From the NCBI GenBank assembly GCA_037783415.1, contig JAZGTN010000073.1, positions 4,712,001 through 4,776,000 on the forward strand: a DNA stretch of 64,000 nucleotides, given 5' to 3'. The notes beneath the pieces are model-generated. The model was given only the letters and a program-made list of their open reading frames with translations, was not told the origin of the DNA and made no database searches. The DNA comes from Leptasterias polaris. Lineage: Eukaryota > Echinodermata > Asteroidea > Forcipulatida > Asteriidae. The number at the start of each line of letters is the position of its first letter. The stretch's first letter is position 1. Shown here piece by piece: positions 12,009 through 52,787 of this stretch. The translations under genes and the position numbers were made by a program.

Positions 12009-12560
12009 ATTCACACATAGGTCATTTCTGTTACGCTTTGCGGGAAAAGCCCCTGCATATGACGTCACAAACTAGAACAAACCCTTGCATATGACGTCAC
12101 AATCTCAAAAAGCGCGCCCTCACCGAGACAAAAGAAGGCATTTCATTGGACGACAGCTGCTTTTGGTGCGTACCACCAGCAGCGTTGTTTGCTTTGCAAG
12201 GGGTCTATCTCTGTTTGTATAGTGTGACGTAGTTCCACGTTAATCCACGCCCAATACTTCGTTACAAGACGCCCATTATAGGAAATACATCGAGCAAAGG
12301 TTTCTTTGAGAATTAATGTATGCACAAGATAGTTTTTGGACTTGGCTTCCGCTCACCTAATGGTCTTGCCAGAATAATCAAGTTGCTGTCATAAGAAAAA
12401 CCCTTTAACAATGAAACAAGTGATTTCTATATAAAATTTATTCACAAACGTATGCCAGCTTTGAATACGGAAGCTGCTAGCAAAACCTTTGTGCGCGCCG
12501 AGCTCAGCGGATGCGCGCGCATGGTGTGACGTATCAACCTTAAAAATGGCAGCAGGATAA

Positions 12561-12733
12561 TAGACCTTATGCATATGACGTCATTTGAGTAGGGCGCCCT
12601 CACCTAGAGGTCAAAAGGAAGATGTTCATTGGCCAATCCTGTGCGCCGCGCGTACAAATCAGCGCGTTTCCATTGTTTCATCATCAGTTTACCTCTAAGA
12701 TGGCGGCTTGGTGACGTCAATGCATAAGGTCTA
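12561..12733 (-). mobile_element. MITE family A, copy 3
   Basis: Inverted 173-bp copy of the family A element with intact TAGACCTTATGCAT / ATGCATAAGGTCTA ends and both TGACGTCA sites. It lies in a part of the unit 1 spacer that is missing from unit 2. Confidence 0.9.
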
Positions 12734-14636
12734 TGGTGACACGAGTTCTGCTCACCGCTGCGTACTCGAGCGTTTATTAGCCCCAGTAGTGGCGGGAAAA
12801 GGGACCGAAGATAAAAGGAGGTATAATTAATGTGCAACTTCAGTGACATTATGTGTAAAGCACTTAAAGATGATTAAAATACAATATTAGGTCATTACAC
12901 AATTCATACCGATTTAATTAAAATATTAAAGAAAAACTAGATATAATGGCTTACAGAGAAAACTTTGACATTGAGGAAACATTTACATTAACTGACGTTC
13001 TGGGCAATGCACACCTACAGAGACACGCCCCTACCGCACGATGTTAGTCTTGCCCATAGCCTGTGCATGTACCGCGCGAAACATTGAGAGCTGATCAAAA
13101 TGCGTGATTTTGTTTCATTCACACACAAACAAAAACTTGGAAACATGAGGTCCATAGTTTTTGTTCTTGTACACGCGATGCTGCACTGGCCATATTGCAC
13201 GCCGTCTGTGCAAAAAATGTCAATAAACACTTTCAGGCGTTATAAAGGCAAAATATATATTTTTAGAGCAAAAATAAAACGCAAATGTATAAATATGTCC
13301 ATGGAGGTTTCTGTGCTTTGGTTGTTCGAAGGAAGAAAAAAAATAACCATGGTGTGATGGTCATTGTGAAATGAACACACAAACTAACATATTCTCACAA
13401 ACTAACCCGAATAAGATTACAGATAATCCGATTGGTTTCCTTAAGAAAATATTTTGTTTCGCTATAAATTGAACAAAATTGCCACAAACTTGGCCACCAA
13501 AGTGGTTAAAAATATAGGAAATTAATGCAGTTTAAATGTTAATTTTAAATCAAATGCAAACATAATGGTTTTAAAGGAAAAATATATACAAGTTTACCTT
13601 CATTATTAATGTGTAAGTCCTTATTAATGGTAACAAACAGTTTAAAATATACGAATATGTATTGTTAATTTTATACTAATGCCACTTCATGAATTATTAT
13701 ATTATATCAAAATAAATGTACATTTATTTGGATCGGAGGTATTAAATCTGAACTAGATTGTCTGTGTCAGAGCCGAGAGAGTTTCGACATAGAGGGACCA
13801 GTTTTCTTTGGTCACGTGGTTGCTTAACGCCATTTTTGGTCCAAATGCAGCACAACCCAATGGGCAGACTAGTCCGACACCCAGTATTCTTCTATATGCG
13901 TTTTTTGTGTGTGACACAAAATGGCTTCTAGCTCTAGTCGCAAGTTGTCACACCTCTCTTAACGTTACGCCCTCAATGTCAACTGTTGTAAAAGAGTACC
14001 ACAACATGTGACATGCCTGCGTGACAAACTAAACTAGATCAACAAATTGGAAGGCTGAACATTAAATTTTTTTCCCACACAACTCAAATGTCAGCGAGCA
14101 AAGAAAAGTGGCGCAGCATTCTCCAGGATTAATAACCTTGCACCAAAAAGTAAAAAAAAAAAAACTTCTTTCTAATGCCTGTGTGTTCTACGGAATTTCA
14201 AAGTTAAACTTTCAGAAGATAAAGAAAACTGAGTCGATACAAAATGGCGACTATTTACGAAATATTTATTTTAAAAATAAAATAAAAAATGTGACCAACA
14301 TCAAATGTCTTCTTAATATTGGTTGAGAACCCTTGCAGTCATAGTCAAGCCCAGAACTAGATTCCTTTTTTACACGGTTTCGTCGCTAAATACCCTTTTT
14401 GCTATCTATTTCTTTGTATGAAGGAGTGAGTTTTCATTAAAAAACATCAAGTCTTGATTGTTAATCTTTGGAATGGATTGCATTCATACATAACAATGTA
14501 TTTAGCAAAAACGAAGATCCAAAAAAAATAAACAAATAAAAATCAAAAACAAATTAAAAAAATAGACATTTTAAAAAGAAAACATCCAACCTTATTAATT
14601 TGGTTGTTGCCATCTTGTTATATCTCTCTTCTTTTC

Positions 14637-23199: not shown

Positions 23200-23703
23200 T
23201 ATATTACTTATTGATGATCACTAATAACAACCTTGCCAAACTCTCAATTTAAATCTGTAGTTGATAAAAAGAAGAACGAAAACAAGTCAGTATGCTGGGG
23301 AGCGCAGGCGGCACTGAAAGCGTACAATTCTTCCAGTTGTCGCAATCCTGACGATTTCATAATAAAGAAGAAAACAAGACGTTGAAGTTTTATGTATATC
23401 GGCCGGGTAGTACAGAGTTCACAAGTTTTTCGGAAAAGCTGTGTCTGGCAACAAGAAGGTATGGGCAGACCACATGGCTCAAATCTGGAGCAGCGCTGGA
23501 AGACTAACCCGTATTTAAAAACAATCTGAAAAACATTTCTGCTTCAAACGTTTGTCAAATTGAAATGTTTTTCAATCTCTATCTCTCAAGCCATATTGAA
23601 AAACAAACAGACCATGTATTTGAAAGTGACGTCATCGAACATTTTATTTTATTTTGACAACAATTGCACTTGAAATGTATTGAACACACCGTTTTAACTT
23701 GAG

Positions 23704-30604: not shown

Positions 30605-33600
30605 GCAAGACCATAACAACAGACCGTTTTTGACGTCATGCATGGTTGCCGCGGTGACGGCGTCACTTAGCTAGTTACACGCTTGAGTGAGCGTGTTTGG
30701 TTGGGACTTAAATCAGTGGTTCGGCTGGTTCATTTGGGGTGGAGCTGGCCATTAAAATTATGTTCTTCCTTTTTTTCCTTGGGGTGAATTGGAAACTGAA
30801 GGGGAAGAGAGCTATATAGTTGCGACACCTTGTTTTTTCTTAGTTTTTGATATTTTAGGGTCATACATTGATAATAAAGATCTCGAAAAAAAAAAATAAC
30901 AATCGGAAATTGTCACTTTTTATAAAATCTTATTGTTATAAAGACGGTAATGGGAGTAATTTAAGCATCTTGTGAAACTATTTCGTCTGAAATGCCTTCC
31001 CCCCCGTTACTTAGAAATCAAAAACAGTATGTCGAGCAACTTGAAATTCCAAAACTCAACTCATGGGGAGTTTTGGAAATTCAAATTCGCGTGGTGTCCG
31101 TTTTTGAATGCAGCCAGAGATGCGGTTGGTACCCGCTCTCACTTAACCCAACGTGCAACTGGATGGATTCGACGTTCTTGATGAAAATACCGTAACAGCT
31201 TTGGCTGTTTTCTCAACAAGTAGACACTGTCTATGCTGAAACTTTTAAAGGTGACTATCTTCATTGACAATTTGACCATGGAGGTAGGAATAAATTCCTA
31301 CCATGATTTGACAAATAAACATTACGTGAACAACCTCTTGCGAATCAAACATTAAACGCAGGATAACAGTCATAGATTGCATATGTGAGATAGTATTTTG
31401 GCTGTTAACCTTGTTCTGGTAATAATTTTGTTATGCTTAGCTATCATTGGGCCCTGGGACAACAAATTATATTGCACCGTACGGTCGCCATCGTCACGCG
31501 GGAACTATTTTGTCAACTTCCAATTGACGGTCCACACTCAAACCATGTTCCACCAAACAATTTAAAGGGATGAAGCATATAAAAACACATTTCGTGATGT
31601 AAATACAGATGTTTGGAATGAATGTTGTACTTCACACACGTTCAGGCAGACCATAAACACTGGCTTAACCAGAGGGGGCGGGGCAGGGGAAATGAGCCCC
31701 TCGGCTTAGAACCATTACCCCCCGCATCTTGCCCCATCATTAATGAGGTCGAACAATGCACAAACGAATGGTTTCAATACATAGTTTAATAGCCCCAAAC
31801 AGAAAGAAACGACAAAACAAACAGCTATTAAGAAACCAATTAAAATACAATAACAGTTTAGGAGATTGTCACAATTGTTATTTTAAATACGATTAATAGA
31901 TAAAAAAATAGCAGACAATAGGTAGAATCTATTTGCAACCAACATATACACATAATATTTCAACTGCGAACTTCAATATCAATATATTACAAACAATGTA
32001 AATTTTCTAAGAAAAGTATTTTGACCAGTGTTCACATAATTATTTTATTTCACACTCACTACAGAAAATATGATCTTTGATGAATATGTGAAGAGATCGT
32101 AAGAAAGTACATTGAACTCCTTCATCACATTGTTACCAATATTAGAAAGATCAGACAATGAATAACCAACATTGGTCTCCATAAAAAATAATAGAGATCC
32201 AAGACGAACAGTAGGCTATATTATTTTCAACGACCGTGCGCTATCATTACTTGGTAATTCACACACTGTGATGTGCACATAGGTCATTTCTGTCACGCTT
32301 TGCGGGTAAAGCCCCTGCATATGACGTCACAAACTAGAATAAACCCTTGCATAATATGTCGTCAGAATCTCAAAAAGCGCGCCCTCACTGAGACAAAAGA
32401 AGGCATTTCATTGGACGACAGCTGCTCTTGGTGCGTAAAAACGTGCGCGTGACCTTAGCGTACCAACAGCGTTGCGCGCTTTGCAAGGGGTCTTCCACTT
32501 TAAGCCACGCCCATCCCAAAAGGGATTACAACGTCAGTGACATTATGTGTAAAGCCTCTTAAAGATGATTAAAATACAATAATATGTCATTAAAATTCAA
32601 ACCGATACATAGAAAACTTTGGCATTGAGGAAACCAAAGTTCTGGGCATTGCCCCGCTCTTTTTTTTCCGTGTGTAAAGTGCACTTTCCAGAGACACTAG
32701 GCGTCTATCGCTCGCTAAGTCTTGCCCATAATAGCCTGTGCATATACCGCGCGAAACATTGAGAGCTGATCAAAATGTGTGATTTTGTTTCATTCACACA
32801 CAAACAAAAACTTGGAAACATGATCATGACTCATGAGGTCCATAGTTTTTGTTCTTATACACGCGAGAGCCTGCACTGTTCATAGTGTATGCCGTCTGTG
32901 TAAAATATTTCAATAAACACTCTCAGGCGTATTAAAGGGGCAACATATATATTTTTAAAATAGAGCAAAATAAAACGTAAATATACATGTACATGAAGGT
33001 TTCTGTGCTTTGGTTGTTCGAAGGAAGAAACAAAGAAAAACAATAACCATTTTATGATGGTCATTAAGTAATGAACACCCTGAGCTCACGAGTGAGTTTC
33101 TTGAGAAATATTCTCACAAACTAACCCGTATAAGATACAGATAACCTGAAATATATTGTTTCGCTATAAATTGAACAAAATTGCCACAAACCTGGCCACC
33201 TAAGTGATTAAAAACATTGGAAATTAATGCAGTTTTATAGAAACGTTAATTTTAAACAAAATGCAAAAATAATTGTTTTAAAGGAAACATAACAGCAAGT
33301 TTACCTTCAATATTAATGTGTAAGTCCTTTTTAAAATATACGAAGTTTAAAATATACGAATATGTATAATTGTTAATTTTATACTAATGCCACTTCATGA
33401 AATATTATATTAATACATTACATTTATTTCAGTGTTGCCATAAAGTTACAGTTTTGCACATGGTTAAAGTTAAGGTACGTGATAGTGAATATATAATGGC
33501 AAACCAGGGAAGTAGTAAAGACATTAACAATTTACACGGAAGTTGAATAAGTAAATGGTATCAAATGTACATTTTATTTGGATTGGAGGTATTCAATCTG

Positions 33601-33815
33601 AAATTACCATAGATTGTTTTTGTCAGAGCTGACCATTGAGAGAGTTTCGACGTAGAGGGACCATTTGTCTTCGGTCACGTGGTTGCTGGACGCCATTTTC
33701 GGTCCAAATGCAGCACAACCCAATGGGCAGACTAATCTGGCACCCAGTATTCTTTTATGCGGTTTTTGTGTGTGACACAAAATGGCTTCTAGTGGCAAGT
33801 TTTAGCAACTCTCTC

Positions 33816-34289
33816 GGGTTGCACCACACTAAATAAACTCCCGTAGGAACCAATGCTAAATGATAAAATAGTCAACTTGAAAAATACTCAAAAAATCGTT
33901 TAAGTCTCCCAGCCTCTTGAAACCAATCAAACATTTTTTCGGACGACTGAACTTCAGAATTCTTTTTCAATTTTTGGCAACTACCCCAGAAGAAAAAAAA
34001 AACACGAAATGTGTTTTTTCCCAAAACCGACTTGCTGCCAGTTTTCGTGAAGCACTTCTCCACTTCCCCGGTCAAATAGGGTCATATTTAACGCCTAAAT
34101 TGTTCAAGTCTCCTCAAAAGTTGAAGCACAGAACCCACGGGTTGTGATAGCTGAGTCTTATTTACACGATCTATTAATTGCATGACCCCCAAAATGTTAT
34201 AATTAAAAATATACTGTGGGTTTACAAATTATGATAAAGTAGCTTGGCGCATGGATGTTGGCCTATTTAAATTTTAGTGTGGTGCGCCC
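33816..34289 (-). mobile_element. Element E, solitary diverged copy
   Basis: About 474 bp, with ends GGGTTGCACCACACTAAATA and TTTTAGTGTGGTGCGCCC as inverted repeats. In internal sequence it is an inverted, diverged relative of the two 480-bp repeats at 48,044 and 52,162. It lies in the spacer downstream of PLSCR copy 2 and is absent at the corresponding place in unit 1 (about 13,950). It shows that element E can exist alone. Confidence 0.82.
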
Positions 34290-34917
34290 CTCAATGTACG
34301 GCTCTGGTCTGTGTCTGATCTTAAGGCAATCAATGTCAACTGTTGAAAAAAGAGTGCCATACCAGGTGACATGCCTGCGGAACAAACTAAACTAGATCAA
34401 CAAATGGGGAAGCTGAAAATTTTGCCACACAACTAACATGTCAGCGAGCATTCTACGGGATAATAACCTTGCACAAAAAAGTTAAACATTTATCTTCTTT
34501 CAAGTTTCAACTGCCTGTATAATCTACGGAATTTCATATTTAACTTTTAGAATATTGAGTCGAAACAAGATGGCGACTATTAACGAAATATAAAATTAAA
34601 ACAAATAAATAAAAATTGACCAACATCAAATGTCTTCTTAATATTGGTTGAGAACCCTTGCTGCCCTGAACTAGATTCCTTTGTTACACAATTTCGTCGA
34701 CAAGTACCATTTTGCTATTTATAATTCTTTGTATGTAGGAGTGAGTTTTCATTAGAAACATCAAATTTTGATTGTTAATCTTGGGAATGGATTGTATTAA
34801 TACATAACAATGTATTTAGCAAAAAAAAATAAAAAAATGTATAGACATTTTAAAAAGAAAACGCTCAAACTTGATTGATTAGGGTGTTGCCATCTTGTTG
34901 CATCTCTCTTTCTTCTC

Positions 34918-37900
34918 CTAGCGACGTCTGTTTCTATTTCTATTATTACTTCTTCGCTCCTCAAAGAACATAAAGTCCTGAAGAATGTTAAATTGAGGGG
35001 GGGGGGGGAACACAATAACTATAAATGATCATTTAGATTGCACAAAGTAGCAACGGAAAGCAGTTACATGCATGTGTATACTATGCTCACATTATACAAG
35101 CAAGTGCATTAATTTATATACAAAGGTACATTTAAAGTTAGCCCTGCATGGCGGCCCTTCACTTTCGTAAAACACTACAGTACATGAGGAAGAGTCCTAT
35201 ATAGGGCTAATTTAAAGTATACTTGATTGAAAGAGCTGAAACAAATAGTCGTAGACAGTGTTCACGCTTTGAGTGAACAACCATATAGGCCTACATGAAA
35301 TATAAATCTGCGAAACTTTGGGATTAATCAATAGAGTGAGTCAGGGGAAAATAGAGAAAAACCATGAAAATTTTTCAGCCGGACACATTTTAGTTATTTT
35401 TGGTTGTAACGACCAAAATCAGCTTTCGCGTTTTAAAAAAAAAGGTTTTCAGAAACAGTTTTCTCGAGTTGAAAAAATGAAGTCATATTCATAATCATAA
35501 TGACTTCATTTCAGAGATAATTATTTCGCAGAAAATAATGGTTCTATTAGGAGCTTTATAATCAGTAAGCTTTCAGACTAAAAATAAACAAAGATTTTTT
35601 TTAAATCCCCTTACTAATCCTGTATCAGGGTATACTTTGGTAATTGTCAAATACCCTAATCCTCACCAGGGCCCAATTTCATAAAGCTGTTTAGCGGAAA
35701 ATAATGCTTAGCAAATTTCTTCGCTAAGCAAAAAATTAGTGGAGCACCAGTCCCAACAATGTAAACTTTATGGAATGTTGGCTGGTTACCTGTTTGTGCT
35801 GAGCAAGATTTTTCTTTGCTTAGCAAGTTTTTGTGCTTACAGGCTTTATGAAATTGGGCCCTGGTGTATCCCAACATAAGCATAAAATAACAAACATGTA
35901 AACATTTGGGCTCAATTGGTAATCGTAGTTGCAAGAAAAAAGAAAAGAACAAAACAAAAAAAACACCCCTTTTGCATAGAATTGTGTGTTTTCCTATGCC
36001 TGAGGAAGGCTTCCCATGCCTGAAGCCTTTCTCAGATTCAAATTTTCCGGTGAAAAAGTACCTCCTTATCTAAATTTACATTACTTCAAAGGGTGTCGTT
36101 TCAAACAATGTTTTATAATATAAACATCTCTCCAGAGCTATTTAGAACAGGGAAAAAAAACTTTGCATCGTCAATAATTTGTGGAGCAACTATCAGAGGT
36201 AAACCCACCCTTCCAAAACAAGATGGCTGTTAGCTGTACTTTTCTCTGTTTAGGTAAGATAGTAGGAAATGAAAACTCACGATCAAGAACACAGCTCCAA
36301 GAAGCGTTGACTTAATCTTCACGTCCAAGTCAGCTGGGACTGAAATTAACAAAAGTGTCCCAAAATGGGTTAAGGAAATTTATTGGCTGCAGAAAGGAAT
36401 TACCGGTTTATAGAATTGGTTATTTAATCTGATAGCGCCCCCTTTTGACTTAACCTCTTTAGAAGAAGACCACCATAGGCAAACTTTAATTAGTGAGTTT
36501 AATTAACCCTTTCAGTACCGCCGAGCCAGATGTGCTCAAAAAAAGGACGACTCGACCAGCTTCAAACAGTACATGCCACGAAAGGCCACCAAATGGGGAT
36601 TGAAATGTTTTTCATTGAACGAATCAGACACAGGGTACACATGTGCCTGGGAGTTGTTCACAGGATCGCAGCCCAGGTCCCCACAAGGACAGTCCTCTGT
36701 AAGTTATCCTGAGACACACCATCCATCCGATCTTGGGGCACCAGGCAAGGTAGTCTTGAACCTTTTGCAGGGACTCGAAAATAAAGGACATTGCATCTAC
36801 ATGGACAATTGGTTTAGTAGCCCGGCTCTGTTCTCCAAGTTGTCTGAGCTAGGATTCGGAGCTTGTGGAACTGTGCGCTGTACCACCCTAGGGATACCCG
36901 ATGTTGCAAACCCCAAGAAGTTCCACATGAAAAGCGGAGCAGATCCCCAATTTTATCAGAAAGCAGGCCAACTATGCGTTATGTGGCAGGACACAAAACG
37001 TGTCACTCTCCTGTCAAACTATGGCGATTGCAGTGGCACTAGTAAACAGATTCGCAGCCGGAAAACTTCAACAGGACATCGTGATATCCAAAAACCGTGG
37101 GAGGATGGTGCTTCGAAAGAAAAACAATTGCACTTTTACATATTGGTTCATGATAGGTGTCAATTTGTACAGTTCATTTCCTCCGACATTAAGGGTGGTG
37201 ACGAATACTAGTTTGGATTTTAGCAGTAATTTGGTTCCAGTTCATATTGTGCGTAATGAAACTTCTCTTGTTTATTTTAGGCAATATTTAATGTTAGTTC
37301 CTTCTTTACATATGAGTTCATGGTAGGTGCTAATTTGTACAGCTCATTTCCTCCGACATTAAATGTGGTAACGAATAATAGTTTGGATTTTAGCAGTAAT
37401 TTTGTTCCAAGTCATATTGTGCGTAATCAAAACTCTCTTGTTTATTTTAGCCAATATTGAATGTTGAATCCTATGGGCGCCAACCAAAGTTTCCAACATT
37501 GTGGCGGGTTGGGGGGGGGGGGGGGGGGGGGGGGGGAGGATGGTGCTTCGAAAGAAAAACAATTGCACTTTGAGAAATTCATTATTTACATATAGGTTCA
37601 TGATAGGTATCAATTGAGGCGGGGGATGGTGCTTCGAAAGTAAATTATTAAAACCTTCTGTTTATTTTAGGTTTCAGAAACCAATTTTCCGAGGGAAATA
37701 ATTTTCATGCAGATTGGTATGAACAGCAACTTTAGAAATGTTAAGCTTTCACATTGAAACTACTCAATTTGGTATTTCTTGGTCATAATACCAAACCTCA
37801 AATATATGTTTAAGGCAATGAATTAGTCAAAGGCAATATGCCAAAGGAAACAGTCATTTCATTGTATACTTCATTGTCAACATTGGTTGTTTGTACAAGT

Positions 37901-40900
37901 TGCATTCTGTGACTAGGACCTAGGCTAACCCCAATCTGCCTTGTGAGGGCGCTGTAACCTCAAACTTTACAGAATACTCTTGGTAACCAAGTAGTCATGT
38001 CGATTAAATTTCTCTGGTCACCATTGCATTAGTTGCAAGTATCTGTTGGTACTGAAAGGGTTATTGTAAAGCGCGTTGATACGTTATTGTAAAATGCGCT
38101 ATATAAGAACAATCGAGCACCTTGTCTGAGCAGCAATTGCTAAGAGTTACAATTTCGGAATGGTATAAAACATTTTCACGTTTCAGTGAGGGTCTGTATA
38201 CGTTTGGTAATGACTCTGACAATTAATGGCAATAAAAACTTACTTGGTAAGAAGTACAGCAGCTTTGGATAGTATATTGCATTTTGAGAAACTTTCACTT
38301 CGAAGTACTACGGTTATGGAAAAATATATCACTGTTTATCCCCCAAATTCTGAATCAGAGAAGCGTTACGACCATAGAGCAAGGAACGAAGTACGACTAG
38401 TTGCAACTCCTTCTCTGTTCCTTGCTCTAGGCTCAGACGTGTATTCCTATATAGGGAATTTTCTTCCTGCGTGGAAATATTCGCTCCGGTTTTTCGGTGA
38501 TAGGGCCTAGATCAAAAACGCGAGAAAGTGAAATTTTCACATGTTAGTTTTATTGTATAAACCTACATTTATATAGGATTCACACAATCAGTAGGCTCCA
38601 GTTACCAAACGTATTCTTTAAAGACATAAAAAGCTTACATGTTACGTCAAAGTTGTCCTTGATATATCCACTCCAATGTTTGGTGACTTTACCGACCTCA
38701 TTTGCCAAGTCCTCGCTAAACACCTGTAGAGGAGGATACAACACAAATGTTGATTTCTGGGCCAATGAGGATTTAGGATTAATGAGGATTTGTGGTTAAT
38801 TATAATGGCATTTACGTTTACAAAAGTCCGTCAGATTCCAGCTTGGTTTATTCATTAATTAACAAAGCTAAATAATTTCAATTCAACTCAAGAAAATATT
38901 CATTTATACATACTCTCAAAAATGAGAGAATATTGTGGTGAATCGTAAATAATGTTAAAATGAAGAATGAAGATGTACATTAATTAAGATAATGCAAACA
39001 GTATATACAATCAGCAGGGGCGGATCCAGGATTTTTTTAAACCGGGGGGCACAACGGCGCATCCCGGATTTTGTATTAGGGCGTCAAAAAAAGAAATGGG
39101 TGGGGTCCATGAGCCGACCTCACTGCCCCTTGTGGGGTCCAGGGGCTAAGCTCTGAGCCTTTGGCATTGTGTGGTGAAAAATCAAGCCTCCATGTACCTA
39201 AAACAGAGAAATAGACACACTTTTTTAGCAAATCAGATCCATATAAATCTTCTAAATTTAATGGAAGAATTTCTGTAACATCGATGGTGGGGTCCAGGGG
39301 TGTGGCCCCGGTGGGGGGTCCAGGGGGCGAAGCCCCCGGAAGCTCTGAGCTTTTTTTTTGGGGGGGGTGAAAAATCAAGCCTCTGTGTGCCTGAAACAGA
39401 GAAATAGCTAGATACACTTTTAAACCACTTCTGGTCCATGACAACCTTCACATTTTACTCAAAGAAAATTTTAATCCCACAAATCTCGGGTTTGGATCTG
39501 GTCGCTGCAATATCTGGTTTCATGCATATTCATCAAAAAAATATAGTGGGTAAAATCTGGCGTTTCTCAAGTTCAAGCTTAGTATAGTCTTTACACTTGA
39601 ATGCCAGAACGACATGAAATATATTTATCCGGGACAAATTGGCACGTCATGTTTCAAATGCTTATGTTATCGTGCAAATCTAAACAATTACAAGTGACAT
39701 AAATTATTATCATGAACGATTCATTTTGGCAGAAAGAAAAAAAAAATGAATGGCATAGAATGAACAAGAAATCCATCCCGCCGCTGGGGGAAAAGACGCC
39801 ACACACACACACACACTTGTGGCTAATTTTAAAATTATAAAAAAAAATCACCCAAAAAAAAATAATCAAATTTTACCCGGGGGCACGAACCCCCTGGATC
39901 TGCGCCTGATCAGAAACATGAGTGTGGAGGGCCATGGGTTAATTGGGAACTCTTTGGTTATGGGGGTTGATTTGCCCAAAATTTTACACAGATCATTCTC
40001 CTTCTTTTTGCTTTCTTTGTCCAATATTGTTTTAACTTCTTGTTGAGTGGACATTTGCCCGGCGTACCTCTTGAGTCGGACGTTGGTGATGGAGGCTGAT
40101 TAAGAAAGTCCAAACTAGTATAAATCAGCCCTATAGGACAAGACAGACGGCCAAAGAGACGAAAGACTAAACATGCAGACACACATTGGACTGTACTCAG
40201 ATAAGTATGATTCCATGAGGAAAATTGATAAAAAGTATTATTTAAACAGCAATGTATAAATAGGGATTTCGAATCCGACCCGAGTGATTTGCCTGTGGAT
40301 TTTTTTTTCCACAGAACTCGGGAAAGTACTAGTATACAGTGCTTAACACACATCGGTGTATAGGGTAAAAACCAAATTATATTCCTTATCCCCGATGCGA
40401 TGCAAATTTACAATGTAGACAACAAGATGGAGCTTATGGGCACATTTTGATTAATATGACAATACTTCTATTACATGCTTACAAAATTACAAATCAATTC
40501 TAAGGCAAGCCAGTTCATTGAAACAACCCAATTAATAACGATTATTTACCGTGATTTTTTTTTTAGGTTCAACACCAAAAGTTGTACACGTATAACATAT
40601 AAGACGTATTACATGAGTGATGACGTAACAGGGCTTTTTGGCGAATTTTTCTGAAAAGCACAGGAGGTATTCAAAATTACTTTTTTTTACACAATTAAAA
40701 TCTGCTTAATCTCATGTGAACTCTATTTTCTTGTTGGTTGAAAAACAATTTAAATGAATTTCAGCAAAGATCACTTGTTGCCGAATTAAGTCTTTAAATT
40801 GAATTTGCTTGGATTGTCTTCATCGACAGCTCTTCGTAAAACTTACATTAAACTCCTGATCCGCTGGGCAGCTGGCACAGTGACAGATGCAGCCCGGGCC

Positions 40901-43900
40901 GCGAATCCTCAACACGGTTTCTTTGTTAGCGTCCATGATGTCGTAGAGCGGGTACCAGCCACTTGGACTAAATAGACAGTGGAAGAAGGAGATACCAGTT
41001 ATATTGAACACATTTTTATTGGCTTATTCTTCTTTCAAATCAGAAAAAATACCATGACCGGTATGGGGGAGAGCGTATTCCCCACAACTATTTTCCTCTT
41101 GTACATAAGAACACACCCCTCCCCTTTTAAAATCCTCTGAAGAATTTCTGAGACTCCAAGTACACAATGAAGACACAATATTGGGTAACATCATGCCCCC
41201 ATATCGAGCACAGAATGTTCACAGTCAAAACTGGGGTAGTTAAAACTGACACCATTGTGTGTTGACACATAATTTTAAAAAACCCAAAACATCAAAACGT
41301 ACACCATAGGGTGCTAAAATAACACTAACTTCAGTCGACACAACAGACATTATGCACATGACGTCATTTGAGTAGGGCGCCCTCGCCTAGAGGTCAAAAG
41401 GAAGATGGTCATTGGCTAATCCTGTGCGCCGTGCGTACAAAGCTGTGGGTTTCCATTGTTTCATCATCACTTTACCTCTAAGATGGCGGCTTGGTGACGT
41501 CAATGGGAAAGGTCTATTAGATTGGTGTTATTTTTACACCCTATTGATATTAATTTTGATACCCTCTATAGGGGTATGTATTAAGTGACAACACTCATGG
41601 TGTCAATTTTAACACCCCTGTTTTTGCAGTGTAAATAAAACTAGAATTCAAAACTAGCAATCCGGGTTCCGGATACTTACGCCTGCCGGACGTATCCGAT
41701 GACCTGACCGACGGGTGCCTCTATAGCAACATCCATGGCACAGCAGTCGGACGCAGCGCACCAGCAGCATCCTGCACAGCACTTATACTCTCGAGTCACT
41801 CGCATTACTTCCTAACAATTTGTAAAATGCAGAGATAAAGGTTGAAGCACATTTTGTTAGCTTAGAATAAATTAATCGCCCATAAACCTAGGATAGGTTA
41901 AAAAGTTGTTTTTTAATGCATTGAATTAAAGACTACGGCCGTTTCTGAATTGGTAGCTGCGGCTTGGTCACGGTGACATCATGCGTTGAAGAATAGGCCG
42001 CCCTTGGAAACACCCATTAGCAACAGCCGCAGCCAAAGCCACTAATTGAGACCTGGGCCCAATTTCATAGAGCTGCCTGCTCAGAAATCTTCTGCTAAGC
42101 AAAAATAAGCAGGATACCAGTCAAAAAAGGTACATGCGGAATGCCATTTTGGCTGCTTACCTTATTCTGGTAAGCATATTTTTTGATTGTACTTAACTAC
42201 TTTGTGTGCTTAAGCAGCTCTTTGAAATTGGGCCCAGTAGTGAAAAATGGCGTACCTGTTGCATGTTGTCGGTGATGTGCATTATGAAGCCCCGAGACGA
42301 TCCCCTGCATTGTCTCTGGCAAACGTCCGGCTCTAAAACAGGCCAATAAAATAAAGCACAATAAAATGAACAAGAATAGAATTTTTACTCTTTATTTTTG
42401 ATACGCACAGTCGTACTTTATGGATAACAAAGTGACATGTAGATATATGTAAGTGTATAAACTATTCCTCCAAACATAACCCGAGAGAACAGACGACCAA
42501 GCCTCACTTACAGGCAACCATTCACCAGTGTTGACTGCTACCTCTGTAGCCCTTTCTCAAGAGCTGTTCGGATTTTGAACAGGCTACCAGTGGCTGCAGT
42601 CACTGCATCAACCAATCTGACAGGGTTCCAGAGAGAAGCACTGCTGAGGGATAGAGATTCCAATCTCTCTCGTCTCAGTACAAATAATGACAATATCGCC
42701 ATCTTTAAGCACCTAGCACCAACACAGAGCACACATGGACTTGCAACCCGCCCTCTCCAGGCCGGCAGCCAACACTTTTAGGAGAGTACACCAATACAAT
42801 ATGTAGAACCTAATTGTCGTATAGGCCTACGTCTACAAAAGCTCTTCTATCTATCTGTACGATTAAAGCCGTAACCTGCGCCATCTTGGATTAACAGCGC
42901 GCCATCGTGAAAAATTCCTAAAAATTAGAATGTCCGCCACCTCGGTTGTTTGGTGTCGGTGTCACTTTATTGCTGTCTTCTCTGCGGTCGACTCAGCCGC
43001 CGGGGTGCCAGACTCTCACGTCACCGGAACTGCCGTGGTGCGAGTCGCCTGGTTGGCTGGTTGAGACGGGCCTCCGGTTGGTTGCATGCGGACCGATCCC
43101 TTTAAATAATTTTGTCGCATGCGGGGCCCACTGCCGTGGTGTTACTCGCCTGGTTGGTTGGTTGGTTGGTTGGTTGGTTGGTAATGGTAGATGTCTGGCT
43201 ACAGCTGTGTTCTGATCAAACTCACCTTCATGGGCGAAGTAGATCTGCTGCCCCACGCTGTTCTTCACTTGGTATCTGTTTGAAGTTTCCAAGTTCGTAA
43301 GCACTGAAAAGTGCAATTTGACAAGAAAATTGTACAAGACTTTAAAAAACAATAATAATAATGTATGTAGCTATATCTTATATAGCTCCAAAGTCCGCCT
43401 AAAAAGACGCCCTGCCAATGCTTTTCACAAGATACGATTTAAAAGGTTAAGGCCAAACACAATTTATATAAAAGGGGTGACCATACAATTCTAAACTAGG
43501 TGGCAACTGGTTTTGTCATTTTTTTCATTTGGACCAAAGTATTCCAATAAAATCTACAATATAAATCTACGTGAGGTATGTCGAGGTCACAACACGTCCA
43601 TAGGTCAAAGGTAAGGTTTCTGGCCATAAGTGGACAGTCAATTAATTTTTTTTAAATGGTCATGTTTTATTTTAGGTTCTGAGCTTTTTATATTTGCTAC
43701 CTTATGAAGACCAAGAACAAAACAGAAAGGGAGTGAATTTTAAAGACTGGTGTGCTCACCTCCACAAGGAATTTTCTGCATAAAATATATGGGGGAATGT
43801 TGAGCACAGGGACAAAAGAAAGAAAACAAGACTGTCTCCAAAGAGATGTAAAAATAGAATGCGTGGACGGTGATAATTTTCAAAAATGAGAGTAACATTA

Positions 43901-44570
43901 TGAATCAACTTGACAAAAATAACTTGGCATAAAGTTACCCTCAATTAACTCCACTTGTTGGTGGACAAGAAGCTGATCTAACTGTGTTAAATATTCCAGA
44001 CCAGGCGGACATCCGGGAATTGACGGAGGGGGAGGCATCCACTGCGCAGGCGCTGGTTGACCAGGCAAATGTCCCGGCTGATCCAGTATCTGAGATGAAG
44101 TCAAACGAAATACAGTAAAATTGCAAGAGAAAGGGGGAAACATGCACCATAGCTCTTTTTAATGTTTTAATATATTGTTTTGTCCGCATAACTTTTGTCC
44201 GCATAACTTTCGAAAGAAGACAAGTCGGTATAGTCTAAACCAACATAGCAATGCATGACACATGTAATATGTTGGGGTGTAATCACTGACTTACCGGCTG
44301 ACCATGGAACCCTGGTTGACCGTAGCCCTGGGGTGGTTGACTGTAGCCTTGGGGTGGTTGACTGTAGCCCTGGGGCGGTTGTCCGTAGCCCTGGGGCGGT
44401 TGTCCGTAGCCCTGGGGCGGTTGACCGTAGCCCTGGGGCGGTTGTCCATAGCCCTGGGGTGGTTGGCCATCCGGCGGCTGGTCGGCTGGTGGTTGGGCGT
44501 TTCCCTGTGGTGGTTGATCGGGCTGCACTTGCTGCATAGCTACCTTGTCCCCTTCTTCGTTATTCTCCAT
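34918..44570 (-). CDS. PLSCR: Phospholipid scramblase, copy 2 (9 coding exons, 345 aa)
   Basis: Paralogue of copy 1 with the same architecture. Coding exons: 44570-44295, 44089-43939, 43303-43226, 42332-42256, 41811-41681, 40967-40847, 38723-38639, 36339-36281, 34977-34918. All splice sites and phases are intact, so it is probably a working gene. Differences from copy 1: a shorter Pro-Gln-Gly N-terminus (exon 1 of 92 codons against 150); CRGSSR (177-182) in place of the family's CCGPSR; an extra Cys pair after the Cys-rich segment (ASDCC); exon 7 shorter by 18 bp, which removes six residues just before DNF (301-303) and alters the start of the Ca2+-loop segment; and a more basic tail (RNRNRRR). 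The Lys-His-Trp motif [10 protein letters not shown] is retained. Introns carry unit-2-specific transposons, including piggyBac in intron 7. Confidence 0.93.
35667..35863. mobile_element. MITE family K in PLSCR copy 2 intron 8
   Basis: A 197-bp element with inverted ends CAGGGCCCAATTTCATAAAG and TTTATGAAATTGGGCCCTG. Unit 1 lacks it (15,862-15,866). A related element is at 42,053-42,236. Internal sequence is rich in GCTTAGCAA / TTGCTAAGC-type inverted motifs. Confidence 0.88.
36507..38060 (+). mobile_element. piggyBac element, internally deleted, in PLSCR copy 2 intron 7
   Basis: Ends CCCTTTCAGTACC and GGTACTGAAAGGG are inverted repeats, the piggyBac form. The left flank is TTAA (36,503-36,506) and the right is TTAT (38,061-38,064), a TTAA duplication with one change. 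Unit 1 has the empty site (16,505-16,513). It contains a fragment of a piggyBac transposase and, downstream, two imperfect tandem copies of a ~170-bp segment (37,135-37,270 and 37,310-37,460) plus a 25-base G tract (37,513-37,537). It is about 1.55 kb, shorter than an autonomous element of the family (about 2.4 kb). Confidence 0.92.
36537..37112 (+). pseudogene. piggyBac transposase fragment (DDE_Tnp_1_7 type)
   Basis: The frame containing [18 protein letters not shown], then [31 protein letters not shown] and GFGACGTVR follows the middle of piggyBac transposases; the Asp of YMDNWF corresponds to the second catalytic Asp. Only about 190 codons remain of the usual ~550-600. The N-terminal part with the first catalytic Asp and the C-terminal Cys-rich finger are missing, so it cannot be active. 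Confidence 0.9.
38190..38610 (-). mobile_element. Element G near exon 7 of PLSCR copy 2
   Basis: Paralogous counterpart of 16,644-17,055, with the same orientation and the same distance to exon 7. It was present before the unit duplicated. Confidence 0.7.
39015..39908. mobile_element. Element J in PLSCR copy 2 intron 6 (5-bp TSD)
   Basis: An 894-bp element with ends CAGGGGCGGATCCAGGATTT and GGATCTGCGCCTG. It is flanked by ATCAG on both sides (39,010-39,014 and 39,909-39,913). Unit 1 has the empty site at about 17,640. It contains two imperfect copies of a ~200-bp internal segment (39,080-39,265 and 39,285-39,470). It is non-coding. Confidence 0.88.
41345..41516 (-). mobile_element. MITE family A in PLSCR copy 2 intron 5
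   Basis: Counterpart of the degenerate copy at 19,117-19,283 in unit 1; ancestral to the duplication. TGACGTCA sites at both ends are retained, but the outer ends are worn (CATTATGCACATGACGTCA; GTGACGTCAATGGGAAAGG). Confidence 0.85.
42053..42236. mobile_element. MITE family K next to exon 4 donor of PLSCR copy 2
   Basis: Ends TGGGCCCAATTTCATAGAGC and CTTTGAAATTGGGCCCA. It is absent from unit 1 (20,222-20,232). In the transcript sense it begins about 20 nt after the 5' splice site of exon 4 (42,255), leaving the donor itself intact. Confidence 0.88.
43151..43182. repeat. (GGTT)n microsatellite, unit 2
   Basis: Eight GGTT units in intron 3, at the place that holds a longer tract in unit 1. 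Length is likely to be polymorphic. Confidence 0.93.
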
Positions 44571-45031
44571 TATATTACTTATTGATGATCACTTTAACAA
44601 CCTTGCCAAACTCTCAATTTAAATCTTTAGTTGATAAAAAGAAGAACGAAAACAAATCAGTATGCTGGGGAGCAGGTGATCTAGAAAGCGTACAATTCGT
44701 GCCGCAATCCTGACGATTCCATAATAAAGAAGAAAACAAGACGAGGTTTTGTGCATGGGCCGAGTAGTACAGAGTTCACAAGTTTTTTTCGGAAAAGCTG
44801 TGTCTGGCAACAAGAAGGTATGGGCAGACCACATGGCTCAAATCTGGAGCGGCGCATGAAGAATAGGCCTAACCCGTGTTTAAAAACACAATCTGAAAAA
44901 ACATTTCTGCTTCAAACGTTTGTCAAATTGAAATGTTTTTCAATCCCTATCTCTCAAGCCATATTCATTTGAAGGAAATTGTTTTCCCAAAATGTTACAA
45001 AATTATCAACTACAGCTAAAGTGCTTCTATA

Positions 45032-46128: not shown

Positions 46129-47496
46129 GGGACGATGCTGGTCTTTGACAATTACCAATGTTGTACATTGTCTTTAAAGAGTGGCTCCAAGGTCAAATTC
46201 AGCTTTGTGATGAATACGGAACTTATTTTCCAATAGAGAGAGTCCTCATGAAAGTGTGGAAAAATTATAAGTCTCTTACCTGACCTTAAAATGGGGTAAA
46301 TCACTTTATATACTTGATACTCTTTTAAAGCGAAACTTGAAACATGACGTCATGGGACACCAAAAACAAAATGGTCTGTACGTTCCAAAGAGGTTTGTTT
46401 TTCGTAAGTCAAACTCATTGGCGTTTTGATTGAATCTCATCAAAATTCAAAATGCACTAAAAAATAATAAGCTCTCACCGAACATTTTATTTGATTTTGA
46501 CAAAGATTGCACTTGAAATGTATTGAACACAATGAGTTTAAGAGAGACTTAGCAGTTTTACCCACTTATAGGTTTCACTCAATTGAAAAATGCGTGGCCT
46601 GAAGGATTCCAATGAACAAGGATTGACCTTGCATGTCCCATTTTCATAATATACCCATGCAACGGTCAATGTATGGTCCGCCAACAAACACAACGAGTTT
46701 TATTTCTACACACTGAGGCATATCTACTTAAAAATTCCTTATCGTCTGGTCGTGGTGAATTTAACGATATGTAGTACATTGTGTATTATGATAGGCCATC
46801 GTTTCTGTGTGGGTGAAAATGTAGTTTGAAGAAGTGGTGTCAAAAGGACTGGTTTGATATTGGACCCAATAATTTTCTACGGGTGGAATCGAGCTTATCA
46901 AAGTAAAATGTTTGTGTAATGGTATAATGTGCGGGTTACACCCTAGCACAGGACTCCTCCGTCGTTGCATACAACGCGACAGTGCGGTGTATTAAACGGA
47001 TACTGACGTCATACCAGGGCTAGTTACACACCTAGCCGGTCCATCCATGTTCAGATGTTTCGACTTGTTATAAGACTACTGTGATGGTGCTTCGGCACCC
47101 TGACCTATATATTTATTTCATATTTAGAGACTGTTTCGTTTTACGCTCAACTACTATCCATTTTGTAAAACACCTAATTATTTTATTAAGGTAGAAATAC
47201 TTCCATGTTACACTTAAATTAGACTAAGCCTTTAATACCAAGATATAAAGTGTACTACCTGCGCCGACTCGACCCGTGATATGTGTCCTTCGGGTGCACC
47301 ACCGAGTCGTCCAGAATTCAATTTATTGTTAAGTAAAATCAAGTCCCTTCTAATTCTGTACATACGAATTATGCGTTTAAATAAAACACAAGAGAACAAG
47401 CGTTCAATGTATATTATTTATTGAGTTTGATGATGCCGCATAACACTTTAAATACAGACTATACGTAACCTGTGACATTACATAATAATATTAGGG

Positions 47497-47660
47497 AATA
47501 ACAGTGTGGGTAGCCGGTCTTCACTGCGTGGTAATGACCGGGGTGGTGGCTGGCCGCTGTTAATGGACCGAGCCGAAGGAAGGCTCGGTCCATTAACAGC
47601 GGCCAGCCACCAACCAAGGTCATTACCACGCAGTGAAGACCGGCTACCCACACTGTTATT
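47497..47660. repeat. 164-bp hairpin palindrome
   Basis: Arms of about 78 bases (starting AATAACAGTGTGGGTAGCCG, ending CGGCTACCCACACTGTTATT) are separated by only about 7 bases (GAAGGAA). A few mismatches occur near GACCGGGGTGG. It lies just beyond the right edge of unit 2. No flanking direct repeat is obvious. Transcribed from either strand it would form a very long stem. Confidence 0.92.
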
Positions 47661-48043
47661 GCCATTAATAAATACCTTTAACGAAGAAAAAGGGTAGTAA
47701 TCATCAGAATTTGTGATTTTTCTTTCGCCGTAAATTTTGGAAATAATCCACTCATGTTCAGGGGCCATTCTTTTGGCTGTTCAACTTTTGCGTGGCTCCT
47801 AGTCCCCTGCACTTAATTAACTATATCAGAAATGTGCATATTTTGAAGAACCAGACTTTTAAAGTAACAGCACTATAAATAGAAACACTTTGGTTGGTGT
47901 ACGGCTTTATGCTTTGCATTACCTTGGCTTCATGCACGTACCAGCTACCAAAATGATACATTGTCTGCGCGTTTATGCATACGCGCGTGGTATGCACGAA
48001 CACGCGTGGTATGCGCGTACACGCGGCACCATCCTGTCCTCGT

Positions 48044-48523
48044 GGGTGCACCACACTAAATAAGCCAGAATTAATGCGCCAAGCTACTTATCATAATTTG
48101 TAAACCCACAACTTATTTTTAATTATAACGTTTTGGGGGTCATGCAATTAATAGATTGTGTAAATATAAAAATCTATCACAACCTGGGGGTTCTGTGCTT
48201 CAACTTTTGAGGAGACTTGATAAATTTAGGCGTTAAAGTTGGCCCTATTTGACCGGGGAAGTGGAGAAGTGCTTCACGAAAACTGGCAGCAAGTCGGTTT
48301 TGGAAAAAAAAAAAAAATCGTGTTTTTTTCTTCTGGGGTAGTTAGCAAAAATTCCAAACGGCTGACCTGCCAAAAATTGAAAAGAATTCTGAAGTTTAGT
48401 TGTCCGGAAATATGTCTGATTGGTTTTCAAGAGGCTGAGAGACTTACACGATTTTTTGAGTATTTTTGAATAATTATCATTTAGCATTGGTTCCTATGGG
48501 AGATCATTTAGAGGGGTGCGCCC
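48044..48523 (+). mobile_element. Element E, left copy
   Basis: 480 bp with ends GGGTGCACCACACTAAATAA and ATTTAGAGGGGTGCGCCC, an imperfect inverted repeat. By eye it differs from the right copy only by one T in a T-run. It has no coding capacity beyond a fortuitous 80-codon frame. Confidence 0.9.
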
Positions 48524-49109
48524 TATATATACAACATGGTGGCGCCCTTGCAGCCATTTTTGTTGGGATTTAAACATGTCTGCCGTTTGTTTACAATTGC
48601 AGGCGTGACAGAAATGAGTTGTTTGAGACTTCTTTCGTCAGTTATCGCCGTTTTTTTTTATTGTTCGTGAAAACATCACTCCTCTGGCTGCAAACAGTAA
48701 TTATAATAAAATATAGATAGCAATAACATTGTCACTTGTTAACAGAATAATTCAACGTTTTCAAAGAGTGGCTTGCTTTTTTTTTAGGCATCCTATTCCT
48801 ACACACTTAACAGTCAGTATACAGTGTGTAAGACGGGACAAACTACGATCGACGGTACGACTATCGTGTATGACTATTTGATGAGACTGTGATGGTAAGT
48901 CACTTTCAAGAAAATCATGGGTCAACAGCGGCTGGTTGCTTCCTCAATTAGGAAGAAATAAACATGTTGTAAACATCATCATCATACATTACATGGCATG
49001 GTTGGTATTAACTAATAACTGAACAAGAAGAGTGGGGGAGGTGTAAACATTGCATTATTATGAATGTCAAGTTTCCAGAAAAGTCAAGTGATTCAATTAG
49101 AGTTACACT

Positions 49110-51071
49110 CTATCGGTTTTTCCATTTTGAGAACATTCTGCTGTAATTGTGCTCCTTGTGAATCTTTGGCCCATCATAGTTATACGATGAGTTAGTGTCC
49201 TGTGACTTTGGATTTAGTTGGCCAGGTTGATACAAATTTTTTTTAGCATAGTAAGTGTGATATCGTTCAGCTCGACACTGTGCTCGTCGCTTTTTGTAGA
49301 TCTTTCCCATAACACGTTTTTTGTGATATTGTTGTTTTTTGTCCATTGCATCGAGGGCTTTTGCAGCGGGTGATCCAGCAGTAATGGGGCAATGAGTTGC
49401 CTCACACTTTTTGATAATAGAGTTTGCATGTTGGTTGTTCACCAGATGGATGGCGCTGTGATCTCTTGAAGCTCCGTTCCTTGAAAAGGTTAGTGTTCCT
49501 TTTGGATTTGTCATGGCGTAGGCATGATTCATGGATTCAGACTTCTGGGAACTTGTTCTGTACTTGGTTCTCTCTATCGCTTCGTCTCCTATGCGTTTTT
49601 CCAAAATTGTTTTAAAGATTTCCTCATCTTTAGATGTTAAAATAAATCTGCCGCGGACATAGCGAGAGAGGTATGGGTACTTGTATTTACCGTTGCAAAC
49701 ATGAGAATTTTGTTTGCATTTCTCATGGTCTCCCATGTAGCAGTTCGGAATTGCATCAATCGCCTTTGCAGCCAGTCTTTTCATGCTTGCTGTGTCATTT
49801 CCGCATTTAATGGAAATATGGTGTGCCTCAGCCTGTGCTCTGTGACTCACGTCATCAGCAAATCGGTCCTGTACTCTGTTTCGGTCTCTTGCACTGTTCC
49901 CAGGGAACATGTCACTGCTAAAGTTTGCTCGGCTGACTGCCGCACAAAGCGAGCGGTTCAAGTGGGATGGGTCCAGCAGACTTTCCATTTCCTTTCCCGT
50001 TCTTCTTCTCATGACAGAATTCATTCCTTATGCTAGACAGCCGTCAGCGTCTGTTGTTATTCTATCCACAAGAACTGGTTCCGTGCACTCCAAAAGTTTA
50101 GTCGCACATCGAACACCCCCTTCTCTCTCATCTCCCATATTGAAATGCGCTGGACGAGTAGCTGTGCACTTGTCGCCGTGCTTAGCGGATGTGCATTGTT
50201 GACCGAATGATGATGGTGACATTTCACCACTTTTACAAAGCTTGTTTTCTTGATGGTACATTATAACAAACTTTGAAGTAGTTGCGTTCTCGCACACGGT
50301 GTCTCTTGTCTGTGTTGCAGGAACAAATGGGGTTTTTTTCCTACAGTTGCGCAGGGGATTATTATACTGCCTGTCCATTTCAACTGCAATTGGACTTTCT
50401 CGTTCAAAGCCTTGGAGCTCACGGATGTCTTTCACTAGTTTCCTCTTGTCTGCCATGTCTCTGATATTTTCATTTTTGATCATTTCACCACATTTGTTCG
50501 AAATTTTTTGCAGCCCACTAGTGGATGGTACAGCTGTGTCCATTGATGTCAAGAGCCTCCTCGCACCTGCGGTTGCAATGCCAGTGTTCTGCAGGCCAAC
50601 TTGGAAAGACATGTTTGGGGTTGCAGTGCGTCGTCCCCGCTTCCTACCCTCGTTAGCTATCTCACTGTAAAGTTTTGTCTTTTGTGTTTTAAAACCACAC
50701 TTTTTGCAGGACATTACCTCTGAGACGGCTAAACCTCTACGCTCTTCTGCCTCAGCCAATAGTTTAGGTTGACCATCACACTTAGGATGTGTTTGTTGAT
50801 GATCAAGTACAGCTTGTGCACCCAGCTCTAGAGCTGAGTTGATGTCTACAAAACGATAACCTCCTCCTTGGTGATCAGTTCCTCTCTTGGGCAGTGGCTG
50901 GCCACATTTGTTGGCTATTGGGATCACTCCCTTGAGCTGGATCTTGTCAACTGGAGCCATTTCTACAACTTTTGGGCGAAGGAGCATCACATTTCTGCGG
51001 TTGTCTTGTTCCATCTGTGCTGCAATGTGGCAGAAATCTCCTCGCTCTGTATTTGGGGCGGCTAAACTCAA
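49110..51071 (-). pseudogene. Mutator-like DDE transposase with one in-frame stop
   Basis: An open frame of about 650 codons read on the minus strand, interrupted once by TAA (50,030-50,028); the two halves are in the same frame. Recognisable parts: a region typical of animal Mutator-like transposases (GYRFVDINSALELGAQAV), a CxxC pair (SCKKCGF), a first acidic site in VEMDRQYNNPLRN, a second in RITTDADG just before the stop, a CYMGDHEKC zinc-ligand cluster, and SESMN, the likely catalytic Glu, followed by a basic C-terminus. Family naming is from memory of these motifs. No ATG is found at the 5' end: the frame stays open upstream to about 51,140, so a first exon is missing or the N-terminus is lost. 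The premature stop falls right after the second Asp. Confidence 0.85.
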
Positions 51072-51159
51072 CTGCTGATGGGTTGGCCTGACATACCGTG
51101 GTGTAGGTATACTTTGAGTTTCACTGCCTTTGTCTTGTAGTGAATTTTAAAAAAATTTC

Positions 51160-52161
51160 GGCTTGAACCAAGTTTTTTGCATCTTGAAAATGCCGCGTCT
51201 AGCTCTACCCATTTTTATGGCAATGGATTTGTTACAAACATTGAATGGCATCCATCATAAGTGATCTCACATTAGTTGTGGTCTAAAGCAAAAATACTTT
51301 TACAGTTCTCCCGATGCACAAGCTAGCGTATCAGGGCCGACACTACGCTGAACGCACAAATTTCGGCCGATATGCCAAAATATATATATATATTTTTTTT
51401 TAATTTATTTTTTTCAATTTCAGATAAATTTCACAAAAATTCATCAAGATAAAACCATTGCCAATGCTCCATATTGGACAGTAGGACCTGTGAAAAGGCC
51501 CCCATCCCAGGGGAATTGTCTAAGATAATAGCCATCTGTTTCTGGATAGAGTTATAACTTGTCCCCATCAACCAGAAACAATCATAATGGTTTGGCCTTT
51601 TTCAACATGCCCCGCCCACGCCCCGCCCACCCTTTCCCCTTTTACCCCGTTCCAGAGGTAGAATAAAATTTGAAAGGGCAGTTAAATGTACAAAAAGTGA
51701 CCTATGTGTTTTCTAAATTTTATAAAGCTCCCCATTTTAGACTAATATGAATGCATGGTTAGAAAAATTTAAGGGAAAGCAAAATGTGCCCCCCCCCCCC
51801 CCCGGCCAGCCCCCTTCCATTTTTACAGCTTGTTCATGCCAATTAACCCCTTCTTAATGATTAATTAAATAACTTGTAAGGTTTTTATGATCCTGTGATA
51901 AAAAAGAGACATGTTAATAACTTTTTGAGTGAGGACTTGGATATAACTTCTGACTTGTCCTTAGAATGTACACAGTGTGTCGTGCAGGTTTTTCTTCTCG
52001 CATTGCTTAGAGTACATGTAAATGCTCCAACATGTTTGACCTTGTTGTAGACGAACGCAATAACATTTCACTTTTTTTTTTCCAGATATCAAGTCAGTGA
52101 CTTATTCTCAACAATTTAAGCATAATTTTTTAACCATAAAGAATAATTAAGTGCCCTTATA
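51160..52161. other. Non-coding right part of composite element body
   Basis: AT-rich DNA with a T-run at 51,388, a C-run at 51,787 and a short CCGCCCACG-type direct repeat at 51,609-51,640. No gene is seen. It could hold the promoter or first exon of the transposase, but neither can be recognised. Confidence 0.4.
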
Positions 52162-52640
52162 GGGTGCACCACACTAAATAAGCCAGAATTAATGCGCCAA
52201 GCTACTTATCATAATTTGTAAACCCACAACTTATTTTTAATTATAACGTTTTGGGGGTCATGCAATTAATAGATTGTGTAAATATAAAAATCTATCACAA
52301 CCTGGGGGTTCTGTGCTTCAACTTTTGAGGAGACTTGATAAATTTAGGCGTTAAAGTTGGCCCTATTTGACCGGGGAAGTGGAGAAGTGCTTCACGAAAA
52401 CTGGCAGCAAGTCGGTTTTGGAAAAAAAAAAAAAATCGTGTTTTTTCTTCTGGGGTAGTTAGCAAAAATTCCAAACGGCTGACCTGCCAAAAATTGAAAA
52501 GAATTCTGAAGTTTAGTTGTCCGGAAATATGTCTGATTGGTTTTCAAGAGGCTGAGAGACTTACACGATTTTTTGAGTATTTTTGAATAATTATCATTTA
52601 GCATTGGTTCCTATGGGAGATCATTTAGAGGGGTGCGCCC
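52162..52640 (+). mobile_element. Element E, right copy
   Basis: 479 bp, same orientation as the left copy and the same sequence except one missing T. Two such similar copies flanking a gene, when a third copy in the window (33,816) is strongly diverged, indicate a recent common origin of the pair. Confidence 0.9.
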
Positions 52641-52787
52641 TCGTAAAAATAACCAAAAACAATACGCGCAAAGAAACAGATTTGATAGTTTCCGCACAGC
52701 AAGCACGGTGCAAAACGAACTTTTACACAACATTGTGCTTGTTTAGGGGCCATTTATTTGCTAGTTTACAGAGAGCCGGTCTATTAT

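Follow-up and report, generated by a model that had tools for sequence, protein, structure and literature searches.

In a stretch of 64,000 nucleotides from the asteroid Leptasterias polaris (hereafter the window; GenBank assembly GCA_037783415.1, contig JAZGTN010000073.1, positions 4,712,001 to 4,776,000, forward strand), a transposase gene lies between two direct repeats in a unit that is almost certainly one insertion of the DNA transposon KolobokP. Such an element consists of an internal region (INT, the body) between two long terminal direct repeats (LTDRs, here the two copies of an element E), and we assigned it by its architecture and by the residues of its transposase rather than by phylogeny. 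The layout TCGT-E1-TATA-body-TATA-E2-TCGT was read at window positions 48040-52644. As the first-pass annotation of the window had stated, two near-identical E copies enclose a body of 3.6 kb in direct order, with TCGT on both outer and TATA on both inner sides; the copies differ by a single gap in a homopolymer run and by 0 substitutions. The LTDR termini are GG..CC, which fits 5'-RR..YY-3', and no terminal inverted repeats of its own were found in the body of this element. The window copy is defective, its own transposase frame being broken.

The layout is seemingly impossible for an animal DNA transposon, but it has a published explanation. KolobokP has been described as a eukaryotic composite-like DNA transposon lineage within Kolobok (Kojima and Bao, 2022; PMC9587614, of which selected sections are cited throughout), and a literature search for the name KolobokP returned nothing beyond that paper. 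In the sections cited, LTDRs of ~450 or ~660 bp surround an INT, each with its own inverted ends of 11-18 bp and RR..YY termini, and target duplications of 3-5 bp, solo LTDRs and multimers are reported. The L. polaris element resembles these families in its LTDRs of the ~450-bp class (480 and 479 bp) with 18-bp inverted ends and RR..YY termini, in its length (4,597 bp, against 4,022-4,748 bp in the autonomous oyster families; PMC9587614), and in having both solo LTDRs and target duplications in the 3-5 bp range. Both (LTDR-INT)n-LTDR and LTDR-(INT)n-LTDR are found, with a single TATA where two INTs meet, and the TATA-edged INT is like that of the clam family KolobokP-1_MeMe, which starts and ends with TATA (PMC9587614). 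What differs is that the abundant family here is without a homing endonuclease frame, that its copies are more numerous and that its INT-only arrays are longer than the published examples (the largest in the sections cited being INT x4; PMC9587614). The family in the window is a further member of a known lineage whose layout is already published, and it has every KolobokP feature we tested except the nuclease. The first-pass annotation had likened the locus to a bacterial composite transposon; the unit so resembling is real, but it is no unusual one-off, since KolobokP has been published and copies occur genome-wide.

The transposase points in the same direction. KolobokP transposases are of the DDD/E type and have a C/DxxH motif, one zinc finger (CCHC) past the first D and another ahead of the E (PMC9587614). 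With residue roles assigned from that description and not from a structure, we recognised D294, C340/C363, D402, H431 of DxxH, C505/C513/C520 and E573 in an alignment of one unit with 15 of 29 relatives, in which D294, D402, D404, E573, DxxH and the zinc-finger cysteines are invariant or nearly so. The 29 relatives were found in a protein database and come from contigs of 1.4-4.5 kb. An uninterrupted stop-to-stop frame of 714 codons is present in 13 units read elsewhere, the other units being shortened or cut off where the sequence read for them ended. Pfam PF20700, 'Mutator-like transposase', matches the N-terminal piece of the minus-strand gene in the window (E 1.3e-33), and the Pfam search of its C-terminal piece gave no match.

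Neither E nor the body is confined to the window: across the genome they recur in single units, in arrays arranged head to tail and, for E, as solo copies. A search of the host genome, which comprises 630 Mb in 334 contigs, with at most 2 mismatches per pattern gave 1,404 LTDR left ends, 1,980 INT left ends, 890 LTDR/INT junctions, 985 INT/LTDR junctions and, with a free gap of 0-30 bases allowed, 256 INT/INT junctions; the reversed-pattern control gave 0. INT starts outnumber the LTDR/INT and INT/INT junctions together, and the different LTDR end of a non-autonomous subfamily, whose LTDRs are 95% identical to E, may explain many of the surplus starts. Among the first 100 perfect INT starts, 87 stand directly after a perfect E end, 11 after another INT and 2 after neither. 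The genome search that the first-pass annotation had called for returned single units, solo E copies and INT/INT arrays, and not the contrary pattern it had named, a body always accompanied by its own repeats and 9-bp duplications and never flanked by E. LTDR identity was 100% in our first match list because E copies had been chosen by identity. The idea that E is perfectly conserved while the INT varies was rejected: 18 of 20 stretches picked through the INT held a full LTDR with 0-3 substitutions against E (per 480), and the other two held a partial LTDR (L066) and an INT/INT junction (L058). LTDRs that directly adjoin other LTDR copies or fragments were also seen (L025 3268-4204, L059, L072 and L083).

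Judged by their flanks, single LTDRs and whole units alike behave like insertions. Nine single LTDR-INT-LTDR loci were read at both ends (in L022, L023 and L025 the stretch of INT between the read ends was left out, the distance fitting one INT), and eight have a perfect 4-bp duplication: TCGT in the window, and TCCG, TGAG, CTAT, ATCG, CAAT, GTCA and CTAT. The ninth, L017, has the flanks TTGA/TATA, which do not match. Candidate solo-LTDR sites numbered 20, 3 with an INT on the left and 17 without; these 17 comprise 14 perfect 4-bp duplications (including L081 and L082, which have the same flanks and are not independent), one duplication of 5 bp, one damaged end and one close pair without a duplication. 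An additional solo LTDR, L024, is flanked by TTGG. The duplications of the whole unit L016 and the solo LTDR L100 lie one base apart, and their flanks agree over the ~12 bases seen. The alignment of flanks proposed in the first-pass annotation has in this way yielded 4-bp duplications at most single units and solo LTDRs, and these rather than the 9-bp duplications it had considered for the body. The lone E it had noticed near 33,816 is a relative of E (Table 1), and solo E copies with their own target duplications exist elsewhere too.

Several LTDRs (L028 3456-4436, L089 and L099) lie in seemingly the same palindromic repeat (~12 bases read), with the flanks CACCGACATCTGGAT / CCAGATGTCG, and in one such case two LTDRs stand head to head, 21 bp apart; a target preference for inverted repeats is possible. 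Three LTDR-INT loci on different contigs (L049, L053 and L019) have the left flank ACCACCCAG in common, reflecting either a shared target repeat or duplicated loci.

A head-to-tail spacing of ~4.1 kb was already visible among the 41 E matches listed. The 100 perfect LTDR/INT junctions listed (contigs C2 to C47; perfect pattern matches only, units with mismatches in the pattern being left out) occupy 61 places, of which 49 hold a single junction and 12 at least two, up to 14 in the largest. Among these matches the spacing is mostly 4.11-4.14 kb, but it is 3.63 and 6.78 kb on C22, and two intervals on C40 measure 8.3 and 14.9 kb. When INTs were compared (18 units in all, with AT-run slippage counted in), those within an array differed by 0-1 substitutions (3 units on C30, six of eight on C40 and 2 on C26), as against 6-32 between loci. 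This near-identity within arrays, and not between loci, suggests that arrays grow in place after one insertion. The same is suggested by one C40 unit that holds 988 bp of the array's own right flank. We considered this 'variant INT' as a second family and rejected it, its first 988 bp being the sequence to the right of the array in a local duplication that includes flank. Arrays of ~1.86-kb units at C182:3114538-3140550 and C237:381-17110, with an LTDR/INT junction 2 bases shorter in the TATA run, are another amplified form. A search with exact ends and gaps of 0-5 bases found 28 shortened LTDR/INT junctions; 27 are two bases shorter, 24 of those in the C182 and C237 arrays.

In other arrays the INTs follow one another directly. 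All 100 INT/INT junctions listed of the 256 have the same 6-base gap, from which the LTDR and one TATA are missing exactly; one TATA (in a few cases TTTA) is kept, and the junctions fall into ~15 separate places by eye. LTDR-(INT)3-LTDR occurs on C26, with ATAA on both sides, and on C37, where the sides differ. On C50, 19 junctions join ~1.4-kb non-autonomous INTs (~20 short INTs) between LTDRs with TGTT on both sides, a layout derived from the positions of the junctions and from the sequence of one unit and of the two array ends. Re-entry of an LTDR into an INT/INT junction, with TATA as a landing pad, was also considered and looks rare, since among the 28 shortened junctions (exact ends, gaps of 0-5 bases) just one, on C55, starts at the second TATA.

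The nuclease is where the family departs from KolobokP. Most KolobokP families have a His-Me finger nuclease gene downstream of the transposase on the opposite strand, although some appear to be without it, and this homing endonuclease has been proposed to induce multimers (PMC9587614). No such gene was found in the canonical INT: the longest opposite-strand frame in its first 800 bp, downstream of the transposase, has 54 codons, Pfam found no nuclease in seven canonical INT frames, and a nuclease query did no better than chance. The non-autonomous INT holds a clear nuclease relic (score 61 against a maximum of 30 in 300 block shuffles; at the protein level 46, where 200 shuffles gave at most 43), and the canonical INT a faint trace (score 26, where 300 shuffles averaged 20.5 and 6 of them did as well; at the protein level 47, reached by 3 of 200 shuffles). 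These remnants lead us to infer that the ancestor of the family was a nuclease-bearing KolobokP and that the gene has since been lost. Pfam PF05551 was found at two places genome-wide, both on C160 (Table 1), in frames of 146 and 147 codons without stops that also match zf-His_Me_endon and HNH_3, with a weak I-PpoI match (E 0.0027). Each frame sits downstream of, and opposite to, decayed KolobokP-like transposase pieces, and an LTDR was not recognised around them. That these frames have been kept by selection was rejected for want of any sign of constraint: over 438 bases the two copies show 5 mismatches, 4 of which change the protein, and they also differ by a 3-base insertion.

Multimers are common here without a nuclease in cis, a nuclease might have acted in trans from C160, and the arrays may predate the loss of the gene. 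It is quite conceivable, and we propose it tentatively, that a nuclease-less KolobokP multimerises to very high copy, its arrays growing by recombination between direct repeats or through the transposase and not through the nuclease, and that loss of the inner LTDR and one TATA then leaves a transposon-bounded satellite, LTDR-(INT)~20-LTDR with a perfect target duplication. If true, transposons could pass directly into satellite DNA in this way. Whether the homing endonuclease induces multimers, as proposed in 2022, is put to a natural test in this genome: none of the units read from the high-copy family shows a nuclease gene, and the two nuclease frames found, the only ones, lie beside decayed relatives. 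Because single units coexist in it with arrays of LTDR-INT and with INT arrays free of LTDRs, the stages between transposon and satellite could also be put in order.

Each LTDR is a small end-pair with its own short inverted repeats, and the INT-encoded transposase would act on these ends. Pairing of both ends of one LTDR would give a solo LTDR, and pairing of the far ends of two LTDRs would move the whole 4.6-kb unit; insertion duplicates 4 bp, TCGT at the window locus, and the TATA on both inner sides is the usual edge of the INT. Recombination between direct repeats on sister or homologous chromatids would later add or remove LTDR-INT units and so build local arrays, and loss of the inner LTDR and one TATA would turn these into INT/INT arrays. 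Transposition, unequal crossover and circle entry are the proposals made for such layouts in the sections cited of PMC9587614.

Of the two models in the first-pass annotation, movement of the unit as a whole is a sensible one that we prefer, by judgement, for single units, eight of nine of which have perfect duplications. The other, in which a circle of one LTDR and the INT recombined with a resident TCGT-flanked solo LTDR (Fig. 5b of PMC9587614), is sensible too and is published, and single loci cannot separate the two because both yield an identical final sequence. A circle would explain the TCGT and the TATA pair alike, and it would find targets in the solo LTDRs that have perfect duplications. 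The inner TATA pair does not tell the history of the locus as the annotation had supposed, being a recurring INT edge. In arrays, repeated entries of independent circles should mix INT variants, against the uniformity seen inside three arrays, although arrays could also be uniform because the circle was multimeric or because they grew locally at a later time. Entry as a circle seems rather unlikely to us. PMC9587614 likens it to the translocatable units of IS26, where entry beside a resident copy would give the same layout; bacterial composite transposons, too, consist of DNA enclosed by a small mobile element that is present twice in direct order, but here the transposase gene is in the middle segment and not in the flanking repeats.

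Unit transposition of a KolobokP also has to be set against explanations that deny the unit. That E inserted twice, independently, on the two sides of an unrelated Mutator element would agree with the many places where E stands alone, but INT starts so regularly follow E ends or other INTs, and inverted terminal repeats of the body's own so failed to appear, that such nesting by chance is hardly credible; it is refuted by the genome-wide recurrence of the layout. Very improbable as well is a remnant of a long terminal repeat (LTR) retrotransposon, or an assembly artefact that doubled one E. Direct terminal repeats, short target duplications, solo repeats and tandem arrays mimic LTR elements (the comparison with LTR retrotransposon and TRIM arrays is drawn in PMC9587614), but each LTDR carries inverted ends, the sole Pfam match at a meaningful E-value in the two gene pieces is to a DNA transposase family, no reverse transcriptase or gag-pol was among the Pfam matches of these pieces and seven further INT frames, and the same layout stands at many loci with different flanks.

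Two observations weigh against the KolobokP reading. Longer arrays are often without matching flanks: both ends were read at 7 multi-unit loci, and the outer 4 bp agree in just 3 of them (the C26 dimer with ATAC, the C26 INT-triple with ATAA and C50 with TGTT) and disagree in the C41 dimer (CCAG/ATAG), C30 (ATCG/CTGT), C40 (CATAG/TATAG) and the C37 INT-triple (TTAATA/TTAA), loci that may have been rearranged. The other is the name of the Pfam family, which says Mutator. Mutator elements are expected to make ~9-bp duplications and to have terminal inverted repeats of their own; the likeness to Mutator and Mutator-like elements (MULEs) lies in the name of PF20700, whereas the duplications here are of 4 bp and inverted repeats of the body's own were not found. 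'Mutator' is simply Pfam's label for this transposase family.

Table 1. Features of the KolobokP element and its relatives (window positions unless a contig is named).
Feature	Position	Strand	Remarks
Left target-site duplication, TCGT	48040..48043	.	Abuts the left LTDR; TCGT again abuts the right LTDR
Left LTDR (E1), 480 bp	48044..48523	+	Imperfect 18-bp terminal inverted repeats, 15/18 match (83%)
Internal region (INT, body), 3,638 bp	48524..52161	-	TATA at 48524-48527 and at 52158-52161
DDD/E transposase gene (PF20700), broken	49110..51212	-	Frame break near 51147-51160, TAA at 50028-50030; start 51212 set by comparison with units elsewhere that carry an uninterrupted frame
Faint putative remnant of a His-Me finger homing endonuclease gene, since lost	49028..49095	+	Position transferred from the canonical INT; weak alone
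Right LTDR (E2), 1 base shorter in the homopolymer run	52162..52640	+	
Right target-site duplication, TCGT	52641..52644	.	
Solo LTDR related to E (82% identity), older	33816..34289 (approx.)	-	Flanks have only GAG in common
I-PpoI-like nuclease frames, open	C160:1212064-1212345 and C160:1238973-1239260		Surrounding 3.3-kb stretches 94% alike (L078, L079, L080)

Elsewhere in the window, 182 bp at 47489-47670 are ~90% self-complementary, with nested inverted repeats whose arms of 51 and 34 nt are 94 and 97% complementary. Two largely collinear stretches of ~14 kb, at 9574-23597 and 30605-44965, have blocks that are 75-96% alike and represent an old duplication. Finally, a frame at 36507-37211 looks, by eye only, like a piggyBac-type transposase.

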